From positions 1 through 64,000 of the forward strand of contig NZ_LSUQ01000010.1 of the NCBI RefSeq assembly GCF_001642725.1: a stretch of DNA of 64,000 nucleotides. Reading direction: 5' to 3'. The notes under the pieces were generated by a model that was given only the letters and a program-made list of their open reading frames with translations, made no database searches and was not told the DNA's origin. This document shows positions 600 to 2,619 of this stretch, in pieces (positions within the stretch are counted from its first letter, which is position 1; every line of letters begins with the position of its first letter). The position numbers and the translations under genes are program-made. This stretch comes from Ferroacidibacillus organovorans. GTDB lineage: Bacteria; Bacillota; Bacilli; Alicyclobacillales; SLC66.

Positions 600-887
600 T
601 CAAGGACGATTTTTTACAGGGTTTTCTTTTTTGGAGAGGGTACCCATTCGATTTAATTTTGGTTGTAAACTTTGATCTGATTTTTTTACGCGATGCCTCC
701 ACATTGATGCAGCGAGTGGACTAGCTGTTGCATACAGTGAAATGGATAATAAGGTTGCGCCAATGAATCCAGTCACCCAACCACCATCAATTACTGAATT
801 ATAAATCAACCCTGTCGCATAAACACCTACAATACAAAATACACCAACTACCCATCTTTTAGGAACCAAAACTTTATGTTGTTTCAT
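600..887 (-). CDS. small membrane protein, last gene of cytochrome b module
   Basis: About 95 residues with two predicted membrane segments (roughly residues 13-31 and 38-58), then a basic, Lys/Arg-rich cytoplasmic tail. I do not recognise the family. The open frame extends back to 956, but starting there would overlap the upstream cytochrome gene by 83 bases. The ATG at 887 overlaps it by only 14 and is preferred, although its ribosome binding site is weak. Its place at the end of the operon suggests an accessory or assembly subunit of the same complex; that is inference from position only. Confidence 0.5.
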   Translation of the reverse strand: MKQHKVLVPKRWVVGVFCIVGVYATGLIYNSVIDGGWVTGFIGATLLSISLYATASPLAASMWRHRVKKSDQSLQPKLNRMGTLSKKENPVKNRP

Positions 888-1863
888 GACTTTTTTCACG
901 CCTTCCATTGCCATATTCACGATAGTACCTTCGCCAAATGAGCTTGTAAATTCCAATCCATCTAGGAATGGAACGCACCACTGGAATAAACGGTGTCAGC
1001 ATTAGTAATACAGTAACAATTCCCACCGTTAATACAACCAACAAATCTGCGGAGGATGATGTTGAAAATGGGGGGATCTGATACAGTAGTGTGTAGTACC
1101 ATAGCCAAACTGCACCTGGATAGTTTCCGGTCTCCTTAATAATTCCCCACTGATTACCCGTCATATCGAGTTGGTTTGCGTATTGTTCATCGGGAGTTGC
1201 TTGAAACAACAACAGGGACTTGGTTCTGTTCATCGCAGGCATGGGTCCCGTAGCGCCGTCGATTGCAGATTCAAGTAATCCTGTTCGTGCTAGCGCAAGG
1301 TACGCATTGATCAGTTGTGGCACCGGTCCGTAATCCGTTGTCATATTTCCTGGCAGGATGAGTTTGCCATTTGTAATTTTCGCCTTGTTTAAAGCGTTGC
1401 TTACTGTGTCTGCCCAGTGGATCTGCGTTGAACGTGTCGCATGGTTCCACGCGGTTAGAGGAGCCTCTAAGGATGGTGCGATTGGAAGAAATCGGGTCAG
1501 TGGACCAATGACATTGTCTTGCGCTGAGTTCACGGGTATTTGTACCCCTGCCCATGACTCTGGTGAGATCGGCCCTAGATGTTGCGCTGCATTAGGCGTA
1601 TGGTTATAGGGTGGGCCATATGTAGAAATTGCATCTTGCAAAGAAAGATCATCGAGAGCGGTTTGTATGAGAAGTTTGGGATCTTGTTGTACCACTTGCT
1701 TTGCAGTTAATGCAGGTACATCTGGTGTAGAAAATATTCCTGCAAGGACAAGTACGATAACACCGATCACACTTAACGCAACGAGCATTTCTTTGATCAG
1801 GTCGTATGGCACTTGGGGATATTGGCTATTGGTGTTTGTCCACGTTCTGCGCAATCGACTCAT
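874..1863 (-). CDS. cytochrome b6-f subunit IV-like protein with large insertion
   Basis: About 329 residues. The N-terminus carries a motif like the start of subunit IV (VPYDL followed by a membrane helix), and the C-terminus carries two further hydrophobic segments resembling subunit IV helices F and G. Between them lies a soluble region of roughly 200 residues, presumably extracytoplasmic, which normal subunit IV lacks. At the position of the quinol-site PEWY motif the sequence reads WLWYYTLLYQI, so PEWY is not conserved. There is no CxxCH heme c site, unlike Bacillus QcrC. The open frame reaches back to 1899, but ATG 1863 is preferred because it reduces overlap with the upstream b6 gene to 38 bases. 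The likely role is the second membrane subunit of a quinol-oxidising b-type complex. The partner electron acceptor is not visible. Confidence 0.6.
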   Translation of the reverse strand: MSRLRRTWTNTNSQYPQVPYDLIKEMLVALSVIGVIVLVLAGIFSTPDVPALTAKQVVQQDPKLLIQTALDDLSLQDAISTYGPPYNHTPNAAQHLGPISPESWAGVQIPVNSAQDNVIGPLTRFLPIAPSLEAPLTAWNHATRSTQIHWADTVSNALNKAKITNGKLILPGNMTTDYGPVPQLINAYLALARTGLLESAIDGATGPMPAMNRTKSLLLFQATPDEQYANQLDMTGNQWGIIKETGNYPGAVWLWYYTLLYQIPPFSTSSSADLLVVLTVGIVTVLLMLTPFIPVVRSIPRWIGIYKLIWRRYYREYGNGRREKSHETT

Positions 1864-2467
1864 CTCCTTCAAGCGGATGTGAAAATGGTTCCACGACACC
1901 GTGCATTCGGACGAGCATTAAATGAACAATTAGCAGAACAATAATCGCCATGGGTAATACAAAAATATGAAGACCATACATTTGACCAAAATTTAGAATG
2001 TTGAAGAATCCGTCAATTCCTGTGGCATTCATCGCGTCTTTTCCTTGTACACCGATCCATTGTGCATCAAAGTTGGTCTGTGATAGATAGCCTGTCAATG
2101 CGGCGACAATGGAAACAAGAAACAATAACCATCCGCCAATCCACGTCCAGTGGCGGCCACCGCGCCATGCCGCCATCAAAAACTGTGCCCATAGGTGTAG
2201 AATCATGAAAAAAAAGAATGCCTGCACGGACCAGAAGTGCATACTGTTAAAGAAGTGACCAACGGTTGAAACATGCCACCAATCAGGTCCGAAGACCGCC
2301 AGTATCGTGCCTGTAACGATAAGCCATACCAATGCAGCAACCGTTAAAATTCCGAATAGATACACATACGAATCAACATATGCAGGCATTGTATCCGGTA
2401 AAAGATTTTCCATAGGTAAAACATCTTGGATCCACAAACGGATCGTTTTTGTCAGATTTGTTTTCAT
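1826..2467 (-). CDS. qcrB: cytochrome b6-like diheme subunit (QcrB-type)
   Basis: 213 residues, the usual length of a b6 protein. Four membrane helices carry two histidine pairs: one spaced H-x13-H (in FNSMHFW to ILHLW) and one spaced H-x14-H (GLHIF to IVHLM). The latter spacing is typical of the b6 and Firmicute QcrB branch. These would ligate the two b hemes of a quinol:acceptor oxidoreductase. The start ATG overlaps the stop of the preceding 51-residue gene (ATGA), so the two are translationally coupled. No Rieske (QcrA) gene is next to it, which is unusual for Bacilli. The symbol is used for family resemblance. Confidence 0.8.
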   Translation of the reverse strand: MKTNLTKTIRLWIQDVLPMENLLPDTMPAYVDSYVYLFGILTVAALVWLIVTGTILAVFGPDWWHVSTVGHFFNSMHFWSVQAFFFFMILHLWAQFLMAAWRGGRHWTWIGGWLLFLVSIVAALTGYLSQTNFDAQWIGVQGKDAMNATGIDGFFNILNFGQMYGLHIFVLPMAIIVLLIVHLMLVRMHGVVEPFSHPLEGDESIAQNVDKHQ

Positions 2468-2619
2468 TTATTGTCCTCCCTTGGAAACGGAAGTACCAAT
2501 GCCAATGCAAAAACAATCACCATCAGCGCTACAACAATCATGTCTGCGACAGAGAGATTTAACCACTGATATTGCCATGCCCAGCCAGCATGTATTGGCG
2601 GTTGTAATTGACCGTTCAT
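2464..2619 (-). CDS. 51-residue single-span protein, first gene of cytochrome b module
   Basis: A short frame starting at ATG 2619 with an AAAAGGGG ribosome binding site seven bases upstream, ending in ATGA overlap with the b6 gene. The peptide has a Trp-rich N-terminus (about residues 13-19) and one membrane helix (about residues 26-44) ending in a basic/acidic tail (FPREDNK). The strong SD and exact coupling argue that it is real. It resembles the tiny single-helix subunits of cytochrome complexes in size and topology only; I cannot name a family. It is a candidate structural subunit of the b-type complex. Confidence 0.7.
   Translation of the reverse strand: MNGQLQPPIHAGWAWQYQWLNLSVADMIVVALMVIVFALALVLPFPREDNK

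Follow-up and report, generated by a model that had tools for sequence, protein, structure and literature searches.

A conserved b6-type cytochrome module with a rebuilt subunit IV and no evident need for a Rieske protein in Ferroacidibacillus organovorans

Introduction

Cytochrome b and the Rieske protein are treated as a fixed pair of bioenergetics, and the quinol-oxidation (Qo) motif is regarded as universal in the cytochrome b family. We analysed a stretch of 64,000 nucleotides of Ferroacidibacillus organovorans (contig NZ_LSUQ01000010.1, positions 1 to 64,000; hereafter the window), near the beginning of which a short operon carries the diheme bis-His pairs of a Rieske/cytochrome b complex and lacks its Rieske protein, its Qo motif and its c-heme partner. 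The locus raises the question of what a b6-type cytochrome connects when the usual partners are gone. A preliminary description, made from the sequence alone, had read the operon as a divergent complex with an electron partner other than Rieske, or as one run in reverse. Here we combine profile searches, structure prediction, a survey of related loci and a phylogeny, and weigh the explanations that these data permit.

Results

A four-gene operon around a b6-type cytochrome b

The operon consists of four overlapping open reading frames that encode, in order, a single-TM peptide, a b6-like cytochrome b, a subunit-IV-like protein and a 2-TM protein (Table 1); the first two ORFs share a 4-bp ATGA overlap. 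The gene upstream is divergent, and six tRNA genes lie past the 3' end of the operon. A sequence scan of the module's four ORFs found no CxxCH site, and small membrane proteins stand at each end, both as first described. In Alicyclobacillales and Acidimicrobiia, homologues of the 51-aa protein (clusters 12 and 4) precede cytochrome b at the corresponding position, and the small 2-TM protein is kept beside the module across Bacilli (clusters 2, 4 and 63). Beyond these genes, neighbourhood clustering identified no linked partner gene in Bacilli, where the neighbours look random; a recurrent neighbour cluster considered as a partner proved to consist of GGDEF/EAL proteins and was rejected.

Table 1. 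Positions of the operon and its features within the window
Feature	Position	Strand	Remarks
Four-gene operon	600-2619	-	ORFs overlapping
First gene, 51-aa single-TM protein, IHAGWAWQYQWLNLSVADMIVVALMVIVFALALVLPFP	2464..2619	-	From ORF list; one TM predicted
b6-like diheme cytochrome b	1826..2467	-	213 aa, 4 TM; Pfam, PDB profile
Heme ligand H77	2237..2239	-	Invariant in all groups and in conventional QcrB
Heme ligand H91	2195..2197	-	Invariant
Heme ligand H167	1967..1969	-	Invariant
Heme ligand H182	1922..1924	-	Invariant; spacing 15, b6-type
Subunit-IV-like protein	874..1863	-	329 aa, 2 TM; start ATG 1863; alternative GTG 1899 gives 341 aa
p-side (extracytoplasmic) insert of ~200 residues, predicted	1114..1731	-	Residues ~45-250, between both membrane helices
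WLWYY, at the place of the PEWY/PDWY Qo motif	1093..1107	-	Residues 253-257; hhalign register against QcrC
Last gene, small 2-TM membrane protein	600..956	-	Start uncertain; ATG 914 gives 104 aa

The cytochrome b scored above the cut-offs of two Pfam families (PF13631, 34.1 bits against 27; PF00033, 29.1 bits against 27.2), and its best PDB profile match was cytochrome b6 of the b6f complex (1q90, E=1.6e-20). Together with a gene order that is repeated in dozens of genomes, these scores rule out a chance resemblance. The bis-His spacings of 14 (H77/H91) and 15 (H167/H182) follow the b6 pattern, and the ligands are invariant in the relatives examined, which bears out the earlier reading of a b6-like diheme subunit. 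Among NCBIfam models the best match was ExtP (NF040969), with 51.8 bits against a curated cut-off of 290. Similarity to Ni_hydr_CYTB was weak and under the cut-off, as was the score against PF01292 (Prokaryotic cytochrome b561 / hydrogenase cytochrome b; 15.6 bits against 30.1).

Other family features have disappeared. Aligned with the conventional QcrB of relatives, the protein lacks the GYLLPWD helix, with the PW of the cd helix, and part of the cd loop; this PW is lost throughout the three groups of relatives (A to C) defined below and in the actinobacterial sequences. The position of the heme-ci cysteine (YCFGG) is occupied by L in the window protein, by S in group B and by V or T elsewhere, with Cys occurring only in the distant group C and in conventional QcrB. 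Neither the cytochrome b nor the subunit-IV-like protein of the window contains a cysteine.

A subunit-IV-like protein without the Qo motif

No Pfam or NCBIfam family matched the subunit-IV-like protein. Its C-terminal part nevertheless aligned with QcrC in a profile-profile comparison (hhalign, probability 67, E=5e-5), in a register that sets WLWYY on PDWYF, with W255-Y256 on the WY, L254 on the acid and the next helix paired too; the loss of PEWY in favour of WLWYY, claimed earlier, is thereby upheld. We modelled the protein with AlphaFold (59 sequences, pLDDT 78.9), and the model and a hydropathy scan place its membrane helices at residues 22-43 and 272-292, while residues 252-261 form a short ef helix. 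Neither approach shows the third helix of subunit IV, which leaves the protein short of the three helices characteristic of b6f and QcrABC. Of the first picture, in which about 200 extra residues separated one helix from the last two, the insert survives and the count of helices does not, there being two in all. A model of the full cytochrome b plus subunit IV, taken from a natural fusion (L136), was of low confidence (pLDDT 67.7, pTM 0.53) and was kept out of the argument.

The insert between the two membrane helices is mostly helical in the AlphaFold model, with pLDDT >90 in its helical core. As both termini of the protein are rich in Arg and Lys, the positive-inside rule would place the insert on the extracytoplasmic side. 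Neither sequence searches nor Foldseek nor VIA-align found a PDB match for it. No His, Cys or Met in the insert is conserved above about 58% among 59 relatives, and it therefore gives no sign of a metal or heme.

Loss of the Qo acid is general: the position holds L in 56 and M in 3 of the 59 related subunit-IV-like proteins, and nine conventional QcrC proteins of relatives all have both PDWY and CxxCH. Around the old motif W253, Y257, T258, Y261 and P249-G250 are invariant. An acid near WLWY, E/D244, stands just before the ef helix in 98% of relatives and could belong to a rebuilt quinol site.

Distribution, paralogues and natural fusions

A scan of GTDB confirmed 283 related loci. The best 80 of these are mostly from Alicyclobacillales and Acidimicrobiia, the Acidimicrobiia including many carriers from mine water, peat and permafrost; Alicyclobacillus, Sulfoacidibacillus, Cellulomonas, Pedococcus, a Nakamurella MAG and MAGs of Acidobacteria and Nitrospirae are also among them. 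To our knowledge, neither Cellulomonas nor Pedococcus is an acidophilic iron oxidiser. Two copies of the module's family occur in a distant relative (G218) that belongs to another class of the phylum.

Comparison of 60 relatives separated the window's own, closest group (A) from a paralogous group (B), in both of which the order cytochrome b, subunit IV, small 2-TM protein is repeated, and from a third group (C) that lies further off. The only other cytochrome b in the organism's own genome is a second copy of the module, assigned to group B (C5:84730-86426). In the tree, a branch with 100/99 support splits the module from conventional QcrB, and groups A, B and C each fall on one side of a branch. 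Several group B subunit-IV-like proteins carry a cysteine-rich cytoplasmic tail (NACANCPLRDSCSQEF...; L010:4730-5815, L057, L080, L153 and L177), which is present in the own genome's second copy and absent from group A; this tail could bind a metal or an iron-sulfur cluster.

At three loci (L124, L136 and L159, from Acidimicrobiaceae/Acidimicrobiales and Actinomycetes MAGs) cytochrome b and subunit IV are fused naturally into a single polypeptide of 528-537 aa, which indicates that the two function together. Of the Acidimicrobiia loci, 17 have the operon immediately behind ctaA (heme A synthase), and there ctaB and tlpA are divergent.

No bc-type Rieske protein in well-covered carriers

The own assembly is 96.8% complete and has four Rieske (PF00355) matches, which when read singly are two ring-hydroxylating oxygenases, a suf-linked ferredoxin and an FAD oxidoreductase. 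Neither this reading nor a profile of real QcrA proteins revealed a bc-type Rieske protein in the genome. The same profile found no QcrA in 13 carriers at least 91% complete (the own genome, G000, with G001, G004, G007, G011, G013, G015, G016, G026, G030, G031, G052 and G054). Among these, Alicyclobacillus sp. ALC3 (G054) is a complete chromosome that carries the module without a QcrA, G004 is devoid of Rieske domains altogether, and the sole Rieske domain of Sulfoacidibacillus thermotolerans Y002 (G015) is, at 109 aa, the size of a ferredoxin. The test is sensitive, since QcrA was recovered at E<=1e-20 in every genome at least 88% complete that has conventional qcrBC. A bc-type Rieske partner is ruled out in these 13 genomes, and the module therefore needs none. 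Across 61 genomes, association between the module and QcrA was not significant.

The preliminary description had named a normal QcrA/QcrC pair elsewhere in the genome as the finding that would speak against it. No such pair was found, and its view of a divergent complex with another electron partner gains support.

The conventional operon of Alicyclobacillales, ypiB-ypiF-qcrB-qcrC, has no adjacent qcrA, unlike those of the same-class outgroups G059 and G060 (detached at L198-L203 and L206-L208, in G037, G053, G056, G020, G049, G040, G003, G006 and G012). In these genomes a bc-type QcrA is encoded at another place and is about 205-220 aa long with a Tat-like RRQF start.

Oxidases and blue-copper proteins in the genome

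Seven COX1 matches occur in the own genome (C58, C55, C9, C62, C23, C39 and C27; loci L180-L186). Three are quinol oxidases, whose subunit II lacks a CuA site. Two complete CuA oxidase operons (C62 and C23) each include a sulfocyanin and a second cupredoxin. The genes of another CuA oxidase are divided between contigs C27 and C39 and lie next to transposase-like genes. A cytochrome c search with the PF13442 profile gave no match. Blue-copper proteins are therefore the evident p-side carriers.

Co-occurrence of SoxE-type cupredoxins with the module was weak and not significant (23 of 28 genomes with the module, 20 of 33 without; p=0.09), and several module-bearing relatives lack a cupredoxin of the SoxE type, the only type searched for there. 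Elsewhere in the own genome (G000:C28:20500-24000; L191:3558-6776) we noted two similar Met-rich cupredoxin-like proteins in a cluster that also holds a P-type ATPase, a peroxiredoxin, an ArsR-type regulator and a DoxX/DoxD-like membrane protein.

Discussion

At the level of sequence, these comparisons establish two predicted b-heme sites, the loss of the hallmarks of bifurcation, conservation as a unit and independence of a Rieske protein. The best explanation, in which we place moderate confidence, is a diheme electron wire that does not bifurcate and that links the menaquinone pool with an acceptor on the p-side, independent of Rieske and free of cytochrome c. Its core would be a b6-type diheme cytochrome b with a two-helix remnant of subunit IV; the bifurcating Qo site would have been dismantled, and the new domain of ~200 residues would occupy the p-side surface where the Rieske head would dock. 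Through the two hemes, the menaquinone pool would then be joined with a one-electron partner that docks on that domain from outside the cytoplasm, in a branch that probably ends at heme-copper oxidases, with electrons favoured to run from quinol to the p-side acceptor. That acceptor is possibly a blue-copper protein, and the likeliest candidate here would be one of the sulfocyanin/rusticyanin-like proteins encoded with the CuA oxidases. The position of the operon behind ctaA in Acidimicrobiia speaks for this reading, and so would the expression of putative relatives in Sulfobacillus thermosulfidooxidans, described below (PMC6315122).

Several observations weigh against this wire: no partner gene is genetically linked to it in Bacilli, co-occurrence with SoxE-type cupredoxins is weak, and the conserved E/D244 so close to WLWY makes a working p-side quinone site possible. 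A partner specific to iron oxidation is unlikely as a general feature, because the family is also found in non-acidophilic actinobacteria.

The same two hemes might instead carry electrons inward. The module would then anchor an unlinked extracytoplasmic dehydrogenase in the membrane and serve as its quinone-reducing subunit, passing electrons from a low-potential p-side donor through bL and bH to menaquinone on the inner face and making pmf, as the cytochromes b of formate dehydrogenase and hydrogenase do. We consider this unlikely but deserving of real weight. Two hemes across the membrane and no functional-looking Qo site would suit such a role, this is thermodynamically the natural direction for a wire, and the similarity to Ni_hydr_CYTB, albeit under the cut-off, points the same way. 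The cytochrome is, however, clearly of the b6/QcrB kind and not hydrogenase-type, no dehydrogenase gene is kept beside the module in any lineage, and the linkage seen in Acidimicrobiia is to oxidase biogenesis.

A true Q-cycle, with a blue-copper protein, either soluble or tethered to the membrane, taking the place of Rieske at a rebuilt Qo site and docked by the new domain, strikes us as improbable. It would account for the acid before the ef helix and for the invariant residues around it, both hemes are retained as a Q-cycle requires, and the own genome encodes blue-copper proteins with its CuA oxidases. The Qo acid and the cd-helix PW are nonetheless gone in all of groups A to C, and several carriers have no cupredoxin of the SoxE type, the one searched for there. 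The broader proposal of a widespread Rieske-less complex III, oxidising quinol through a rebuilt Q-cycle with a blue-copper acceptor on the subunit-IV domain, would be a long shot.

The preliminary description had also considered reverse electron flow as in acidithiobacilli, that is, an uphill complex of acidophilic iron oxidisers in which quinone is reduced by electrons derived from Fe(II). This idea fared poorly, and we rate it distinctly improbable. A plain two-heme wire cannot use pmf to reduce menaquinone from a +0.6 V donor, the coupling being unavailable in the needed direction. Simple uphill flow is further disfavoured because pmf-driven quinone reduction by bc1 relies on the confurcating Qo/Rieske reaction that is missing here, and the carriers include soil actinobacteria such as Cellulomonas and Pedococcus. 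In its favour, many carriers come from acidic, iron-rich sites, and in S. thermosulfidooxidans a pair of neighbouring 'cytochrome b/b6 domain' genes, related-looking and putative relatives of the module, track iron-oxidation genes in expression, dropping along with those for sulfocyanin and CuA oxidase under Fe(II) shortage (PMC6315122).

That the module is an ordinary qcrBC complex in degenerate form, with its Rieske protein encoded at a distance, an arrangement that ordinary qcrBC of Alicyclobacillales does have, is highly improbable given the absence of bc-type Rieske from the own genome and 12 other well-covered carriers and the separate branch of the tree, and for genomes such as G054, G004 and G015 it is already refuted.

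Here a b6-type cytochrome is found without Rieske across several phyla, in genomes without any bc-type Rieske protein, beside a rebuilt subunit-IV homologue whose new domain matches no recognised fold. Its role, once known, would show how a cytochrome b works after bifurcation is lost. The module could also supply a missing electron-transport link in bacteria of acid mines, peat and permafrost, many of which carry it.

Among the open-licence literature we found no paper that describes the insert in subunit IV, the loss of the Qo motif or how widely the module occurs. The nearest precedent is a Sulfobacillus petB homologue, a diheme cytochrome b whose operons contain neither cytochrome c nor an iron-sulfur protein, which Justice et al. 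(2014; PMC4378227) called 'not canonical bc complexes' that 'may perform some other function' and left unexplained. Their paper is silent on the subunit-IV-like partner and its insert, on the Qo motif and on the distribution, and the likeness to our module is one of description. On the question of an already described bc variant, a Rieske-less petB has been noted before, and its membership of the present family is a candidate assignment. The ExtP b-type cytochrome of selenite/tellurite reduction operons shares a b6-like cytochrome with the module, which differs in having no ext-type multiheme operon around it and in its score. Archaeal FoxC/FoxD and CbsA/SoxN of acidophiles, compared by description, are likewise proposed b-type cytochromes of acidophile respiration; FoxC/FoxD were rejected as relatives, FoxC being reported to resemble the gamma subunit of ethylbenzene dehydrogenase and not the b6 fold (PMC10654088).

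The closest known systems remain cytochrome b6f and the QcrABC complex of Bacilli, with which the module shares a four-helix diheme cytochrome b, b6-type ligand spacing, the split into b6 and subunit IV and a recognisable C-terminal part of subunit IV. It differs from both in having no Rieske protein, c heme, PEWY/PDWY motif or cd-helix PW, in the missing heme-ci cysteine of groups A and B and of the actinobacterial sequences, and in a subunit IV that has two helices instead of three and has gained a p-side insert of ~200 aa.
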